IMG/VR virus record: IMGVR_UViG_3300042923_001785 | Location: 1 to 45,334 of that record | Reading direction: 5' to 3' (one strand) | From: a virus | DNA length: 45,334 bases | Part shown: positions 16,052 to 22,822 of the stretch, piece after piece | Numbering within the stretch: the first letter of the stretch is position 1 | Layout: every line of letters starts with the position of its first letter | Notes under the pieces: model-generated | What the model saw: only the letters and a program-made list of their open reading frames with translations | Told to the model about the DNA's origin: nothing | The model's database searches: none | Made by a program: the position numbers and the translations under genes

Positions 16052-16737
16052 GTAGTAGATCAGAGCATTGGAATGAGTTTTTTCTTAAAGGGAATCAGAT
16101 TGATAAACAGTTGGATGATATTGAAGGAGTTTTAAAGGTTGCTGAAATGCCAGAATGTTCAGTCAGTATTTATGCAGGCAAGGAGACAGTGTATCCCAAC
16201 TCAGTGCTTCCGGTAGAAACCATGGATAGAATTTTACACACGGTTACGGATGCTTTGAGAGAAATTAAGCTTAGTAAAGAGATTGAATTTGATAAGCTGA
16301 TGGGAAAAGTTAAGCCGGCATATATCAATCCATCATTCGAAGCGGCTGTCCAGGGCATGGAACGATCAGGCAAACAACTTAATGTAGAGACAAAAGAGTG
16401 CGTATTAACCGGAGACAAAAGTATAACCGTAACAATTGCACCGGATTCGCTGGAGAAGAAGCTGACCAGTATTCTACAGAAGGAAACTAAACGTATTGTG
16501 GACAGGCCAGTACCTAAAGCAGAACAGCCTAAGCAGGAATCTAAGATGGGCCTCATGACCAAAGAAGACGTTGAACGGATGTACATCCAAGAGAATAAGA
16601 CCATGAAGGAGATCGCTGAATACTATGGGGTCAAAAAGGGTGACGTAAATAATTTTATTTATGTAAATCACCTGAGCCGGAAAAACTTTAAGGATGATGA
16701 TTTCATGGATGGCGAGTCCGGAAGGGAGCGTCCCTGA
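16048..16737 (+). CDS. Phage protein with C-terminal helix-turn-helix
   Basis: 229 residues. The first 150 have no recognised domain. Residues about 172-210 (LMTKEDVERMYIQENKTMKEIAEYYGVKKGDVNNFI) form a resolvase- or sigma-like helix-turn-helix. A proline/lysine linker precedes it. It may be a DNA-binding regulator near the switch to late transcription, since the sigma-like late regulator follows shortly. Confidence 0.65.
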   Translation: MSSRSEHWNEFFLKGNQIDKQLDDIEGVLKVAEMPECSVSIYAGKETVYPNSVLPVETMDRILHTVTDALREIKLSKEIEFDKLMGKVKPAYINPSFEAAVQGMERSGKQLNVETKECVLTGDKSITVTIAPDSLEKKLTSILQKETKRIVDRPVPKAEQPKQESKMGLMTKEDVERMYIQENKTMKEIAEYYGVKKGDVNNFIYVNHLSRKNFKDDDFMDGESGRERP

Positions 16738-16912
16738 GCCGCCTCCACTGAGGACGCAGGATAAAGACAGTGAGATCTGCCCAGTGTGCGGTAAGCAGAT
16801 TGTATTTACGATCTATATGCCACGGTCGTGCTTTACATATAAATTCAAGAAGAACGACAAGATGGTTTACTGCTGCGGATGGAGCCACTTACAAAAGGCG
16901 AGAGGACGGTGA
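16694..16912 (+). CDS. Small zinc-binding phage protein
   Basis: 72 residues if begun at 16694; the start at ATG 16709 is about equally likely, as no strong ribosome site separates them. CPVCGKQIVF in the middle and CCGWSHLQKA at the end give the C-x2-C ... C-x-W pattern of a family of phage zinc proteins often found just before late regulators. It overlaps the previous gene by 44 bases. Confidence 0.55.
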   Translation: MMISWMASPEGSVPEPPPLRTQDKDSEICPVCGKQIVFTIYMPRSCFTYKFKKNDKMVYCCGWSHLQKARGR

Positions 16913-16916
16913 GACA

Positions 16917-17357
16917 TTGACAGAAGCAGAATTAAGTCAATACAGAGCAATTAAGCAAGAAATAGCGGATTTAAACAGGCGAATTCAAGAAGCGAAGGAT
17001 GGACCGATAATGAGCTTTGGAACAGTAAAGGGATCAAGTAAATACTTCCCTTATACACCTCAAACCTTTCATGTTACTGGTATGGATCCGGCGGATACAG
17101 ATATTCGTCAGAATGAAATATCTGAATTACTCAGACAACGTGAAGTTAAACGAAATGAGCTAATCAGGAAACAGTTAGAGATTGAACAGTACATTTCAGA
17201 AATACCTGACAGCACGACAAGGACAATCTTCCGAATGCATTTCATTGACGGTGAAAATCAAATTAAGGTTGGTAGTAAACTAGGATATGATCAGAGCGTT
17301 GTTTCAAGGAAAATTCGGAGCTATGTAAAGTTGCATAAAAAACATAATTCAAAGTGA
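16917..17357 (+). CDS. DUF1492/sigma-region-4-like late transcription regulator
   Basis: 146 residues. An N-terminal coiled coil (LSQYRAIKQEIADLNRRI) is followed by the segment ISEIPDSTTRTIFRMHFIDG and a helix-turn-helix (NQIKVGSKLGYDQSVVSRKI), as in DUF1492/ArpU-like phage proteins that resemble sigma-70 region 4. Such proteins activate late genes. TTG at 16917 is preferred because GGACGGTGA is at the proper distance; the longer upstream frame overlaps the zinc gene. It is the last gene before a strong terminator and the accessory bay. Confidence 0.8.
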   Translation: MTEAELSQYRAIKQEIADLNRRIQEAKDGPIMSFGTVKGSSKYFPYTPQTFHVTGMDPADTDIRQNEISELLRQREVKRNELIRKQLEIEQYISEIPDSTTRTIFRMHFIDGENQIKVGSKLGYDQSVVSRKIRSYVKLHKKHNSK

Positions 17358-17371
17358 TAGAATAATAGCGT

Positions 17372-17440
17372 GGAAGGTTGCCAATAGGTAACCTCCTGAA
17401 CGGCTGCCGGGTGTTAAAGCCAGGTGGCTGAATCCCCCAT
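17372..17440 (+). ncRNA. Candidate structured RNA ahead of the methylase
   Basis: A hairpin GGAAGGTTGCC-AATA-GGTAACCTCC (17372-17396; ten pairs, one bulge) is followed by a GC-rich stretch with GGCT...AGCC and GCCAGGTGGC pairings that could form a second fold. No ORF is present. Together with the adjacent terminator this could be a short RNA or an attenuator. Confidence 0.35.
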
Positions 17441-17442
17441 TT

Positions 17443-17480
17443 AAAACCGCCAAGGTAATTTAAAACCAAGGCGGTTTTTT
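17443..17480 (+). terminator. Rho-independent terminator after the late regulator
   Basis: AAAACCGCC pairs with GGCGGTTTT in a 9-base-pair stem, followed by a T-run. It ends the early/middle operon. Confidence 0.85.
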
Positions 17481-17523
17481 ATCACCTAAAATAATACCCA
17501 AATATTTTATGGAAGGTGATATT

Positions 17524-18279
17524 ATAAACAGTTTTATTTCATGGATCGGTGGCAAGAAGCTGCTGAGAAGCAAAATAATTGAACAATTCCCCGGCGCTAA
17601 TGAGTACGATAGATACATTGAAGTATTCGGAGGTGCTGGATGGGTATTGTTTGCAAAAGATAAGCATGCAACACTGGAGGTATTTAATGATGTTAACGGG
17701 GAGCTAATTAATCTTTACCGTTGTGTAAAATATCATAGTAATGCACTACAGGAGGAACTAGAATGGTCTTTCGTATCCAGAGAGCAATTCTTTGATTGTA
17801 AGGAACAGTTAGTGGTTAGAGGACTTACAGATATTCAAAGGGCAGCACGGTATTTTATTCTAATCAAGAATAGCTTTGGTACTGACTTAAGGTCATTCGG
17901 GGTTAAAGGTAAAGATTTAGATAACAGCATTGAGTATTTAGGAGCCATAAAGCAAAGGCTTAAGTCAGCTGTTATTGAGAACAAGGATTTTGAAAGTTTG
18001 ATTAATACTTATGATAGAGAAAAAGCATTGTTCTATTTGGATCCTCCGTATTATCAAGCTGAAGAATATTATGATGGAACCTTCAGTATCGAAGATCATG
18101 TACGGCTAAGGAAAAGGCTGGCGAATATCAAAGGAAAATTCATTCTGTCTTATAATGACTGCGACTATATTAAAAAGCTTTATTCAGATTGTTCGATATT
18201 TGAAATAGATCGACAGCATAATCTGGTTGCAAAATCAGGAAGCGATCGTTATAAGGAATTAATAATTAAAAACTTTTGA
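17524..18279 (+). CDS. D12-class N6-adenine DNA methyltransferase
   Basis: About 251 residues. The N-terminal SAM-binding region reads FISWIGGKKLLR and VFGGAGWVLF; the catalytic motif is DPPY in LFYLDPPYYQAEEYYDG, and LSYNDCDY follows. It would methylate adenine in a short DNA site, either to protect phage DNA or to alter host expression. No restriction partner is seen. The only ATG in frame (17509) has no ribosome site, while GGAAGGTGAT lies ideally upstream of an ATA codon at 17524, which would give MNSFISWIGG as in homologues. A non-standard ATA or ATT start is therefore proposed. Confidence 0.85.
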   Translation: MNSFISWIGGKKLLRSKIIEQFPGANEYDRYIEVFGGAGWVLFAKDKHATLEVFNDVNGELINLYRCVKYHSNALQEELEWSFVSREQFFDCKEQLVVRGLTDIQRAARYFILIKNSFGTDLRSFGVKGKDLDNSIEYLGAIKQRLKSAVIENKDFESLINTYDREKALFYLDPPYYQAEEYYDGTFSIEDHVRLRKRLANIKGKFILSYNDCDYIKKLYSDCSIFEIDRQHNLVAKSGSDRYKELIIKNF

Positions 18280-18304
18280 CAAACATATGTTCGATTGGTA
18301 TAAT
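18276..18304 (+). promoter_or_regulatory. Perfect consensus promoter with embedded LexA-like box
   Basis: TTGACA (18276-18281) and TATAAT (18299-18304) with exactly 17 bases between. The spacer and -35 edge contain AAACATATGTTC, the reverse complement of GAACATATGTTT, matching the clostridial LexA pattern GAAC-N4-GTTT. An ATAATACC-TTTG-GGTATTAT palindrome overlaps the -10. SOS-controlled transcription is inferred. Confidence 0.7.
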
Positions 18305-18362
18305 ACCTTTGGGTATTATTTTAGAATTTGTGGTAGTACGGTAAAATACCGGCTGCCGATAT

Positions 18363-18432
18363 GGAACTGTAGCTCAATGGGCAGAGCATTAAACGTATGT
18401 CAATGTTGCAGGTTCGAATCCTGCCGGTTCCT
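18363..18432 (+). tRNA. tRNA-like element with defective anticodon arm
   Basis: The acceptor stem GGAACTG/CGGTTCC (seven pairs, one G-U), D arm GCTC-AATGGGCA-GAGC and T arm GCAGG-TTCGAAT-CCTGC are all intact. The part between the D and T arms is only 20 bases, two or three short, and cannot form a normal five-pair anticodon stem with a U33 loop; a CATT/AATG stem with a long loop is the best fit. No CCA follows. It is transcribed from the consensus promoter just upstream. It may be a tRNA pseudogene or a tRNA mimic. Confidence 0.55.
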
Positions 18433-18475
18433 TCCCTCAACCCCTAGAGGGAACCCTATATGTACCCCTCATAAG

Positions 18476-18510
18476 AAAGGCATTCGGTTTGTCGGCTGAG
18501 AGCCTTTTTT
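18476..18510 (+). terminator. Terminator of the tRNA-like transcript
   Basis: AAAGGC pairs with GCCTTT around an imperfect loop with GGCATTCGGTT, followed by TTTTTT. The GGCATTCGGTT part is shared with the 3' hairpin of the repeat at 19048-19172. Confidence 0.65.
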
Positions 18511-18513
18511 GTA

Positions 18514-18542
18514 TTGCAATATATTGTAATAAGTTGTATAAT
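18514..18542 (+). promoter_or_regulatory. Promoter of the 157-residue accessory gene
   Basis: TTGCAA (18514-18519) and TATAAT (18537-18542) with a 17-base spacer, directly after the preceding terminator. Confidence 0.75.
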
Positions 18543-18568
18543 AATGGTAAATGGTTAGGAGGGGTGAT

Positions 18569-19042
18569 ATGCCAAAATTCAAGGAAGCAGATTTTTATTA
18601 CGGCTCAGTGTTATCAATGTTGTTTAGTAACAATATAACTCCAGTACTTATCGAGAATGATAATGATAGGCAAGTATATGATTATACAACCAATAAAGGT
18701 GAGTTTCGAGCATTTCTTAAGTACAGAACATCTAAAAAGAAAGTAAAAAAAGATAATTACAATAGTTGGGATTTTAATTTTGCAAACGATTGTGATGAAA
18801 TCAAGCGATATATTGGGGAGGGGAAAAACGTTGTATTGTTTTTAGTATGCGGGTCCGAAAATTTTAACGAAAGCGAACTTGCTATATTGTCAAAGGAAGA
18901 TATACAAACAATATTCGTTAACAATAAAAAGACAATCACTATCAGCAGGCAAAAACATGAAAGGGCTTTCCGTATAGCGATGGGCGGTGGGAGAAGCAAC
19001 TCATTGCCAATAAAAAACAACAGATTTGATGAAATATTTTAA
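18569..19042 (+). CDS. Accessory protein of unknown function, 157 residues
   Basis: Begins MPKFKEADFYYGSVLSMLF. It contains a KGEFRAFLKYRTSKKK segment, SWDFNF, a hydrophobic strand GKNVVLFLVCGS and a C-terminal ISRQKHERAFRIAMGGG. The order (acidic residue, then K-Y, then beta strand) could suit a restriction-like nuclease or a ligand-binding fold, but no catalytic motif is certain. It resembles a widespread family of bacterial hypotheticals beginning with ADFYYG. AGGAGG precedes the ATG, and the gene has its own promoter and terminator-like repeat. Confidence 0.7.
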   Translation: MPKFKEADFYYGSVLSMLFSNNITPVLIENDNDRQVYDYTTNKGEFRAFLKYRTSKKKVKKDNYNSWDFNFANDCDEIKRYIGEGKNVVLFLVCGSENFNESELAILSKEDIQTIFVNNKKTITISRQKHERAFRIAMGGGRSNSLPIKNNRFDEIF

Positions 19043-19047
19043 TACAT

Positions 19048-19172
19048 AATAAAGAGCATCCTTTGTGAGGCTTTTCTTATACCTCAAATATCAGGGTCGT
19101 GATAGGCCATAAGATAATTCAATACCTTCAATAGCGGAGGTTGGGCATTCGGTTCGGGCTGGGTGCCTTTTT
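19048..19172 (+). repeat. Two-hairpin intergenic repeat, copy A
   Basis: This stretch aligns along its length with 21636-21766. Shared blocks include TAATAAAG, AGCATCCTT, GCTTTTCTTATA, CAAATATCAG, CCATAAGA, AATTCAA and ACCT-CAA-AGCG. It has a degenerate terminator hairpin at its start and a second hairpin at its end (GGCATTC...GGGTGCC, then TTTTT). It lies downstream of the 157-residue gene. It could be a terminator-linked small RNA or a recombination block between cassettes. Confidence 0.6.
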
Positions 19173-19209
19173 AGTACAAAGCAAATGGTAATATAGTCCT
19201 ATAGATAAA

Positions 19210-19223
19210 CAAACAAACGTTCG
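19210..19223 (+). promoter_or_regulatory. Second LexA-like box
   Basis: CAAACAAACGTTCG contains AAAC-N4-GTTC, the reverse complement of GAAC-N4-GTTT. It is followed at once by ATATAATTATTATACC, a possible -10, though no good -35 is seen. The downstream gene begins at 19335. Confidence 0.4.
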
Positions 19224-19277
19224 ATATAATTATTATACCAAAAATAAGTAAGAAATGTCATATTTTACCCTTTTGTG

Positions 19278-19306
19278 TTGAAATTAATTCACTATTGATG
19301 TATAAT
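19278..19306 (+). promoter_or_regulatory. Promoter of the two-gene accessory operon
   Basis: TTGAAA (19278-19283) and TATAAT (19301-19306) with a 17-base spacer, 29 bases before the start codon at 19335. Confidence 0.75.
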
Positions 19307-19334
19307 GATGGAAACAATTTTGGGGGGGAATAGC

Positions 19335-20297
19335 ATGGCAAATAAAACAGTTGAATTCTTAAAAATTGATTTGATTGAAAGAATATCGGGACATAAACAA
19401 GACTATATAATGCTTGAAAAAATTTTACTTGATATTGTTAAGTCAAAAGGAATAAGTGGAGATGAATGCAAAACGATTGATTTGACTCCGGATATCACCG
19501 CGGATAATGTTCTGCCTAAAATGGTGTTAGATATTTTTGAAAATGACTTATTTTTATTTGGAAGAATATGCAGAAAGAAAGCGAATAATGCGATTTTACA
19601 GCGTGATTATGATTCTCTTGTAGCGAGCGAGGTATTTACACCATCAGAAGCAATGAGAAAGGGAATTGAGGTATTTACATATTTCATAATTGATCTAGCT
19701 AAAGGAATTATCTCTATTGCTAATGCTAAAGATGCGCCTGGAGCAGGTATACTTAATAACTTATTAGATCATTATAATTCTGAATATGTGATGAGATTTA
19801 CTAATATTCCAAATGAAGATGGCATAAACTTACTATACGCATCAACTATGCCAGAAATAACAAAGCTTGAATTTGTCGTTCCATCGCCAGATCCTCAATA
19901 TTTACAACGTATATTGGAATTAACAGAAGATGAAATAGCATGTATAGCTGGAAGTGACATAGTAACTACGACATTAATATTAAGTCCTCTACCTTATAAA
20001 TCCCTGGAAAAAGATACCTCTAAAGTAAAAAGGATTATTGATATCTTACGCGAAAAGAAGGGCATATATAAGCAAGCGATAATCAGGGGAAAATCGAACG
20101 AGTTTGGAAATAAGGAATTTGATTTGCAAGCAAAGTATTTTACTTACCCAATACAAATCAAAAAAGATCATGTAGTAGATGGTAAGAAAAAAGAGTATAA
20201 TCTAAAGGAGATCACAAAGCAATTTGAGGCGGGTCTTGTAGAAGCTTATTATCGAAATCGAGACTTGATTCTTGTAATTGCAAGTAGACGAGAATAG
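19335..20297 (+). CDS. Accessory protein, probable defence or exclusion component
   Basis: 320 residues, no transmembrane segment. N-terminal MANKTVEFLKIDLIERISG; a middle section LFLFGRICRKK, then GIEVFTYFIIDLAKGIISI, and a C-terminal region with KFYTYPIQIKKD-like strands and basic residues. The layout (a strand-rich N half with a self-contained ...YFIID..KGIISI core) recalls families of abortive-infection-type hypotheticals, but I do not recognise a named domain. GGGGGGGAA precedes the ATG. It is followed 14 bases later by a four-helix membrane protein, so the two probably act together. Confidence 0.7.
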   Translation: MANKTVEFLKIDLIERISGHKQDYIMLEKILLDIVKSKGISGDECKTIDLTPDITADNVLPKMVLDIFENDLFLFGRICRKKANNAILQRDYDSLVASEVFTPSEAMRKGIEVFTYFIIDLAKGIISIANAKDAPGAGILNNLLDHYNSEYVMRFTNIPNEDGINLLYASTMPEITKLEFVVPSPDPQYLQRILELTEDEIACIAGSDIVTTTLILSPLPYKSLEKDTSKVKRIIDILREKKGIYKQAIIRGKSNEFGNKEFDLQAKYFTYPIQIKKDHVVDGKKKEYNLKEITKQFEAGLVEAYYRNRDLILVIASRRE

Positions 20298-20311
20298 AAA
20301 GCGGTGAATTC

Positions 20312-20899
20312 ATGAAAATACTTAGATCATATGTATATAGTAAGAATTATCGCATGAACATATTCTTATTTTTTATAGTATCATTTTGTATATTTATGAT
20401 TGGTAAAACATTTCACTTTTATCTGTTTATAATTAATGTCGGAAATGAGTCCGACTATCATTCAAATATATTAACAATAAACTCGGTTTTAAGTGGATTT
20501 TCACTTACTAACCTAGGAATTTTAATAAGTATATCGGGAGATCAGTTAGTAGAAAAATTAAAGGGTACCGATATACTAATTAAGCGTAATACACTGATAA
20601 GTCATTCGATTTGTTTTGGCGCTATATCAATTGTTGCATCACTAATGTTTGTGTTGAATATTAATATTGAAAAATTTCCAGCAGTTACCGAATTTATTTA
20701 TGGTTATTTATTTATCATTGAGATTACATCAATGCTTCTTAGTATCACTTATTTTCTGCTCTCAGTTAAAAAAATGATTCAATTATTAACTTATATTTAT
20801 ATTCCTAAAAATCAGTTTACCTGCGAGGAAATTACTCGTATAAAAGAACAGATGAAGAACTCTGTGATTCGAACTGATGATATAGACCCAGATCAATAG
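20312..20899 (+). CDS. Four-helix membrane protein paired with the 320-residue protein
   Basis: 195 residues with four hydrophobic segments near residues 17-40, 55-75, 94-114 and 127-150, then a soluble C-terminal tail with charged helices. Two-gene units of a cytosolic sensor and a membrane effector are common among phage defence systems; here that is an inference. Spacing of 14 bases to the upstream stop and a ribosome site GGTGAA support an operon. Confidence 0.7.
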   Translation: MKILRSYVYSKNYRMNIFLFFIVSFCIFMIGKTFHFYLFIINVGNESDYHSNILTINSVLSGFSLTNLGILISISGDQLVEKLKGTDILIKRNTLISHSICFGAISIVASLMFVLNINIEKFPAVTEFIYGYLFIIEITSMLLSITYFLLSVKKMIQLLTYIYIPKNQFTCEEITRIKEQMKNSVIRTDDIDPDQ

Positions 20900-22258: not shown

Positions 22259-22822
22259 ATGTTAACCGATAAACAAAAGTTATTTGCAGATGAGTATTTG
22301 ATAGACCTTAATGCCACCAGAGCATATAAGGCGGTCTACAAGAATTGTAAGAGCGATGAAGCGGCAGCTGCAGCCAGTGCAAGATTGTTAAGAAATGTTA
22401 AGGTGGCTAAATACATTGAGCAGCGAATGAAAGACCGAGAGAAACGTACTGAAATCACTCAGGATAAGGTCCTTAATGAACTTGCTGCCATTGCCTTCTC
22501 AAACGGTTCTGACTTCGCACAGGTTGTTGAAGAGCCGATGATTGTTGAAGGTAAGTATGTTATGGACCCGGATACGGGTAAACTAAGAAATTGGGAAACA
22601 GTAAAGATAACTCATACCGATAAGCTCCCCGAGGAAAAAAAGAAGGCTATTGCCGGTATAAAGATGGGGAAGAATGGGATTGAGGTCAGTACATGCGATA
22701 AGGTTAGGGCGCTGGAGCTGTTAGGCAAGCATCTGGGAATGTTCTCAGACACATTAAAGTTAAAAGGTGATGCAAATACCGAAATTACTATAAAAATTGG
22801 TGGTGAGGACTATGGCGATTAA
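22259..22822 (+). CDS. terS: Terminase small subunit
   Basis: 187 residues of the Terminase_2 (PF03592) kind: LTDKQKLFADEYLIDLNATRAYKAVY forms the N-terminal helix-turn-helix, followed by ASARLLRNVKVAKYI. It binds the packaging site and hands DNA to the large subunit. AGGAGGTGA precedes the ATG. It overlaps the large-subunit gene by 11 bases. No promoter of its own is evident in the 40 bases upstream. Confidence 0.95.
   Translation: MLTDKQKLFADEYLIDLNATRAYKAVYKNCKSDEAAAAASARLLRNVKVAKYIEQRMKDREKRTEITQDKVLNELAAIAFSNGSDFAQVVEEPMIVEGKYVMDPDTGKLRNWETVKITHTDKLPEEKKKAIAGIKMGKNGIEVSTCDKVRALELLGKHLGMFSDTLKLKGDANTEITIKIGGEDYGD

Follow-up and report, generated by a model that had tools for sequence, protein, structure and literature searches.

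RNAs with the shape of a tRNA that serve as regulators are already known (PMC3399842), as are phage tRNAs directed against defences that cut tRNAs (PMC11555353, PMC10264068). The tRNA-Other of Bacillus cereus is tRNA-shaped and non-translational and is thought to be part of a larger regulatory RNA; its gene lies on the chromosome beside a pathogenicity island, its anticodon is clearly that of Trp, and a link to Fur was reported (PMC3399842). A T5-like tRNA-Tyr defeats retron-Eco7 (PMC11555353), and anticodon-loop variants of phage tRNAs have been described (PMC10264068). These anti-defence tRNAs are highly expressed, complete molecules that replace the cleaved tRNA, and a change of the anticodon abolished the effect (PMC11555353, PMC10264068). 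GOLLD and ROOL are structured phage-associated RNAs, hundreds of bases long, which have been discussed alongside tRNAs (PMC12286853). The RNA analysed here is encoded in a 45,334-base IMG/VR virus record (the window, whose positions are used as coordinates below). Like tRNA-Other it has a tRNA-shaped element that would act outside translation, but it is phage-borne, lacks a conserved anticodon and belongs to a family with exchangeable arms. With the anti-defence tRNAs it shares a phage-encoded tRNA fold and an anticodon arm that may be under arms-race selection, whereas the family has no conserved anticodon to restore. GOLLD and ROOL are far longer, and the window element has no Rfam match to them. 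We did not find a phage family with an exchangeable, often self-complementary anticodon arm in the mostly freely accessible literature on phage tRNA mimics and decoys.

In the window, a self-contained RNA unit is located between the 3′ end of a Dam-type DNA methyltransferase gene (17509–18279, plus strand; PF02086, E 1.7e-30) and an uncharacterised ORF of 163 aa (18551–19042), which as a query found no relatives in viral contigs and no plasmid match. Upstream of the locus lies the gene of a late regulator (phrog_36, DUF1492, ArpU-like; 16770–17357, plus strand; phrog_36 E 3.5e-17), and the gene of the terminase small subunit (22259–22822, plus strand; PF03592, E 5e-36) forms the right border of the accessory bay. 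The first-pass annotation had placed the RNA in that bay, and its position bears this out, with the late regulator and Dam upstream and the terminase small subunit downstream. From 5′ to 3′ on the plus strand the unit consists of a promoter with a LexA-type box, a hairpin, a tRNA cloverleaf, a second hairpin and a terminator stem that runs into T6 at 18510. The first hairpin, GGTAG-TA-CGGTA-AAA-TACCG-G-CTGCC (18332–18357), lies directly 5′ of the cloverleaf, and its place is taken in relatives by another hairpin or a terminator. The second, TTCCCTC-N8-GAGGGAA (18432–18453), is the same in L004, L034, L046 and L105 and similar in L050 and L076. The intrinsic terminator AAAGGC(...)GCCTTTTTT spans 18472–18510, and most clostridial relatives have similar GGCATTC...GTGCC-T-run terminators 3′ of the tRNA-like element. 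The form GGCATTC...GGTGCC-T-run recurs in the window (18476–18510 and 19143–19175), with similar ones in L004, L050, L076 and L105, and closes units of the accessory bay. For the RNA of about 200 nt a fold of −72.1 kcal/mol was predicted (z −4.2; reached by 0/200 shuffles), and in this MFE fold one hairpin stands on either side of the cloverleaf and the last stem leads into T6. The sole ORF across the RNA (18287–18499, 70 aa) has its start codon within the promoter and is not credible. The claim of a transcript of about 200 bases that ends at a T-run and holds no plausible gene is upheld by the fold and by the position of this ORF.

The 70-nt cloverleaf (18363–18432, plus strand) is composed of an acceptor stem (18363–18369/18425–18431), a D arm (18372–18387), a short anticodon module ATTAAACGTATGTCAATGTT (18388–18407), a T arm (18408–18424) and a discriminator U at 18432; CCA is not encoded. 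It scored 51.3 bits against the Rfam tRNA covariance model RF00005 (E 3e-8, gathering cut-off 29) and was read by ARAGORN as a 70-nt tRNA-Tyr(GTA). The acceptor, D and T arms had been described as intact and the anticodon arm as shortened, and both descriptions proved correct: 16/16 pairs of the three arms form, and the distance from D stem to T stem is 20 nt, 3 fewer than the standard 23. In the ARAGORN structure the anticodon stem is paired at 4/5 positions with GTA as the triplet, it contains an A.C mismatch, and position 33 is C, not U. The combination of a 5-bp anticodon stem, a 7-nt loop, U33 and a conserved anticodon was found neither in the window nor in its relatives, although a tRNA cloverleaf with acceptor, D and T arms is evident from the RF00005 score and from the covariation described below. 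The anticodons assigned by ARAGORN were Tyr(GTA) for the window, Ile(TAT) for the homologue L105, Val(CAC) for L073 and an undefined two-base one for L034, and most of the members with the longer arm received no call. This disagreement among homologues is evidence against decoding; the window copy may retain a residual ability. ARAGORN reported no tmRNA, that is, no tag-peptide frame with a tRNA-like domain, and in scans of the window and of the relatives' loci for other Rfam families, GOLLD and ROOL included, only RF00005 reached the cut-off.

With the Dam gene as a query, 30 relatives were found in IMG/VR. In the nearest, L004 (80% identity), Dam is followed by the identical promoter and box layout, and a cloverleaf at L004:7820–7899 has the T arm of the window and nearly its D and acceptor arms; its anticodon arm is longer and quite different. 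Further phages were found by pattern scans that left the anticodon region free and then by scans for the new arm. The set comprises 16 distinct relatives; about 15 phages and prophages contribute to it, among them those of Clostridia, an Eggerthella phage and two high-GC phages, and each of the eight records with the D-arm pattern contains one copy. In most relatives the arm (type A) begins with CUG; an 8-mer, one purine and (Y)YAACARGUA come next, followed by CAG and five bases of the variable region, and a 3-bp CUG/CAG stem with a loop of 18–19 nt replaces the anticodon. The segment (G/A)UAACARGUA of this loop (for example in L069 and L004) resembles GUAACAAGGUA, which we take to be the universal 16S rRNA sequence near the decoding site; the resemblance is possibly due to chance. 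The window has a shorter arm (type B), known from two lineages, in which CGTATG.CAA is common to the window and the homologous module ATGTATCGTATGACAACGGAT of L105/L158.

The two types occur at one and the same phage locus. L046, with a type A arm, and L105/L158, with a type B arm, are 100% identical over 127 nt up to position 26 and carry unrelated anticodon arms from there on; beyond the arm, the T arm and 3′ hairpin are about 90% alike, and downstream of the shared hairpin the genes are mostly unrelated. Therefore, the anticodon arm is exchangeable, as would suit a mimic whose arm faces changing partners. The anticodon region of other phages had been proposed for comparison, and it showed a tRNA body that is kept, an arm that is swapped and, in most relatives, an oversized loop. 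The recombination breakpoint between L046 and L105/L158 falls precisely where D arm and anticodon arm meet, and this point also marks the left edge of the accessory bay. We also considered whether the type B arm is accompanied by an accessory protein of its own; the accessory proteins of the window, L105 and L004 had no convincing similarity, and the idea was dropped. Translations of L046 and L066, being out of frame, are excluded from this comparison.

Over the 16 distinct members, 96.3% of the cells in the acceptor, D, T and CUG/CAG stems are paired, and 11/19 pairs have double changes. This level was reached in 0/500 shuffles, and slid registers gave 30–48%. Exceptions are mainly L041 and L076, whose acceptors have a bulged A, and L048 and L049, which have weak pairs. 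The homologues were examined for random decay of all their arms, the mark of a simple pseudogene, and did not show it; instead the acceptor, D and T stems covary, and on these compensatory changes such a pseudogene was rejected. We consider it probable, with good confidence, that the element is a selected, non-decoding tRNA-like RNA.

In whole genomes the type A loop was detected in 1/397 Lachnospiraceae and in 1/391 sampled Clostridia, both times in the same Herbinix MAG. Since it is missing from 396 and 390 of these genomes, respectively, the element is phage-borne, and the same counts give no support to capture of a host tRNA by the phage. Short-arm elements were found in 0 of 299 Lachnospiraceae genomes; a normal-arm control pattern likewise found none in 16 of them, and therefore this host-genome comparison says nothing on phage specificity. 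The copy in Eggerthella lenta phage LE2-3 (MW679026.1; L069:1495–1573) is annotated as a tRNA-Cys and is actually a type A element, which makes the name doubtful. This phage also encodes RtcB.

The promoter of the window RNA is of the sigma-70 type, TTGACA-N17-TATAAT with an extended −10 TG (18276–18304, plus strand), and matches the consensus at 12/12 positions, so that its description in the first-pass annotation as perfect stands. It is abutted by the 3′ end of Dam and is the sole perfect site in 16500–20500; weaker promoter matches were at chance level (19 found versus 16.9 expected). Equivalent promoters follow Dam in L003–L006. Between the −35 and −10 elements lies the box CAAACATATGTTCG (18280–18293), which on the minus strand reads CGAACATATGTTTG, an exact CGAAC-N4-GTTYG. 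A clostridial LexA box on this strand had been claimed, and the exact GAAC-N4-GTTT agrees with it; in C. difficile, LexA operators of this pattern occur at lexA, recA and ruvC (PMC4234289). A candidate operator of the form GAAC-N4-GTTT/C overlaps the promoter at 18280–18293. The sequence of the box varies in L003–L006. Two other exact LexA-type boxes are present in the window, one at the end of a Cro-like gene (2970–2983) and one between accessory genes (19210–19223). With one mismatch allowed, both strands together contain 6 boxes versus 2.2 ± 1.8 expected, a count that is only suggestive by itself because 8/100 shuffles also reach 6. In the Herbinix MAG, which carries a relative and may differ from the host of the window, the box pattern occurs 3 times versus 14 for the reversed control, with none of the sites beside an evident SOS gene.

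The box-bearing promoter goes with the 3′ end of Dam in the window, L003, L004, L005 and L006, and the contents downstream of it vary. Between the promoter and the tRNA-like element of L004 come first a Kelch/Ig-type gene (L004:5959–7770), broken by an in-frame stop, and then a terminator. No box was found in front of the element in L036, L048, L049, L050 or L105, and the link from promoter to tRNA-like element was found in this window only. The travelling of the LexA-box promoter with Dam in L003–L006 argues that SOS control of the RNA is local to this prophage, and together with the arrangement in L004 and the five boxless relatives it rules out SOS control as a trait of the family. The original proposal of an SOS-driven tRNA mimic holds as far as the strong promoter with a LexA-type box in this window is concerned, and fails for the relatives, in which the box is absent or separated from the element.

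We propose that the locus encodes a phage-borne tRNA-like RNA that does not decode, with a LexA-boxed promoter and an exchangeable anticodon arm, acting in trans as a mimic; judged from the DNA sequence, this explanation as a whole has about an even chance of being right. Upon DNA damage, LexA would leave its operator and the RNA of about 200 nt would be made. Enzymes of tRNA processing (RNase P, RNase Z and CCA addition) would then release an L-shaped RNA of 70 nt, which would act in trans as a tRNA mimic. Its body would bind a tRNA-handling protein, and the anticodon arm would set the partner, or prevent decoding or cleavage. The likeliest purpose, put forward tentatively, may be to act as a decoy for, or to inhibit, a tRNA-directed effector of the host or of a rival phage, given that the tRNA body persists, the ability to decode has gone and phages exchange the arm among themselves. 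The first-pass annotation had suggested a decoy for an anticodon nuclease, an inhibitor of a tRNA enzyme or a signal in induction; all three are conjectural. PADLOC, run on the accessory proteins, detected no tRNA-directed defence gene beside the element.

A more specific possibility is that two RNAs join through a self-complementary anticodon loop and that the dimer is the active form. Loops that are self- or mutually complementary, and that vary yet stay pairable, are found in viruses in the HIV-1 dimer initiation site and in the phi29 pRNA, and the type A architecture recalls the HIV-1 loop; those contacts differ in lying outside any tRNA fold, and the dimerisation of the type A RNA is a prediction. 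The type A 8-mer is GCGCGCGC in most members, GCGGCCGC in L072, GTGCGCAC in L073, CCGCGCGG in L075 and GGCGCGCC in Eggerthella phage LE2-3, the last of these, the fifth version, having been added by hand alignment. Each version is its own reverse complement and always stands directly after CUG. In the 12 alignable type A sequences 100% of the palindrome pairs form, and 3/4 pairs vary on both sides, as in 0/500 shuffles; the self-complementary loop is thus upheld by compensatory change, in five versions. Predicted duplex energies are −13.7 to −17.5 kcal/mol. A single molecule cannot pair an 8-nt palindrome with itself along its whole length, so that pairing of two molecules is the simplest reading, and in the type A relatives a kissing helix would join two RNAs. 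Against the dimer, the loop is nearly all G and C, which raises the chance of a palindrome (0.04 each in a GC-only loop; 1.3e-7 for five on the assumption that they are independent), the version in L041 has only 6 nt (GCGCGC), and a palindrome might act in DNA instead.

The window would take part in such pairing through the weak candidate 8-mer ACGUAUGU (18393–18400, plus strand), which is self-complementary only with G.U pairs and has a duplex energy of −6.2 kcal/mol; with a shuffle P of 0.26 it is not significant alone and was dropped as firm evidence. The 8-mer of L105, UCGUAUGA, also pairs with itself when G.U is allowed, and its outer pair is U-A where the window has A-U. Such 8-mers are expected in 20–26% of shuffles, which speaks against the dimer and leaves the two cases suggestive only. 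On balance we regard an active dimer, extended to the window by G.U pairs, as possible but somewhat improbable. A broader picture, which we rate as doubtful, is that a tRNA-shaped RNA family with an exchangeable dimerisation loop occurs in phages from two or more bacterial phyla, in which an 8-bp kissing helix would produce a non-decoding double mimic that cannot be cut, made in the prophage of the window on DNA damage.

The main rival of a trans-acting mimic, which we hold to be unlikely, is a cis-acting element in the leader of the late operon, where the cloverleaf would serve as a processing or antitermination signal and the released piece would have no function. A comparable arrangement is the leader (6S) RNA of the lambda PR′-tR′ region, which is short, terminated and located beside the late regulator, before the late genes; it has no tRNA fold, and it has a late promoter whereas that of the window RNA is of LexA type. 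A cis-acting role fits the position of the element, which in clostridial phages usually comes just after a phrog_36/ArpU-like regulator and 5′ of the terminase, in some with intervening accessory genes and in others without. A gene of the phrog_36 family precedes it also in L083, L084 and L105, a protein related to Q-like antiterminators occupies the place of the regulator in L072, and in L073 the element is directly before the terminase. The terminators 3′ of most clostridial copies imply read-through, as do those in L004 and L066, where a terminator lies only a few bases 5′ of the element, and therefore the RNA there would have to come from read-through. However, the element of the window has its own promoter and terminator, the copy in Eggerthella phage LE2-3 belongs to a small cluster of tRNAs in a genome whose first 30 kb have no annotated terminase, and a processing signal leaves the conserved loop and the changing yet self-complementary 8-mers unexplained. 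A packaging RNA or cos site, which the nearby terminase had brought to mind, was rejected: covariation of the stems is at the RNA level, the window, L004 and L105 have accessory genes in between, and the Eggerthella copy has no annotated terminase nearby.

Some further features of these genomes were observed. Right behind the late regulator of the window is a hairpin, GGCTGCC...GGTGGCTGA (17402–17432), which recurs in L048, L050, L065, L076 and L083 with pair changes that keep the stem when judged by eye; it perhaps belongs to the late promoter or the leader. The tRNA-like element of L050 follows this hairpin immediately, and in the window Dam lies in between. The window also encodes a 618-aa phage protein (11976–13832) whose central part contains an RNA polymerase alpha C-terminal domain (PF03118), and on the minus strand (1538–2568) a pair of M78/IrrE-type peptidase and HTH repressor that resembles the ImmA/ImmR switch of ICEBs1.

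Two other explanations are far less probable than a cis-acting leader. A phage tRNA of the usual functional kind, unusual in its anticodon loop and restoring decoding under attack, would agree with an Rfam tRNA score far over the cut-off and with the known phage tRNAs that replace cleaved host tRNAs (PMC11555353, PMC10264068); yet the absence of a conserved anticodon, the 3-bp stems and 18–19-nt loops of type A and, in the window, the C at position 33 and the A.C mismatch make it very unlikely. A degenerate tRNA pseudogene left by recombination at the edge of the accessory bay, to which the breakpoint exactly at the D/anticodon junction of L046 versus L105 would lend itself, is the least credible reading of all, given compensatory changes in three stems, 0/16 broken pairs in the window and a type A loop conserved across phyla.

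Elements with a short arm are not restricted to these relatives. A scan for a short gap between the same D and T arms returned 80 IMG/VR stretches (L089–L166), 70 of them distinct, and in 46 of the latter the acceptor (at least 6/7) and T stem (at least 4/5) are intact versus 4.7 expected when acceptor halves are dealt out at random. In many of them the anticodon arm is cut to a tight hairpin with a loop of 3–6 nt. Non-decoding tRNA-like RNAs may thus be common among phages, as far as a set preselected for the short gap can indicate.

The tRNA genes of phages are usually viewed as translation tools or as substitutes for cleaved host tRNAs. If the trans-acting mimic proposed here is real, the shape of a tRNA would also serve phages as a weapon or signal outside decoding. 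Such elements are overlooked by the standard tRNA finders or receive misleading amino-acid names from them, as with the tRNA-Cys of the Eggerthella phage, and the self-complementary loop of the family makes a sharp prediction of RNA dimerisation.
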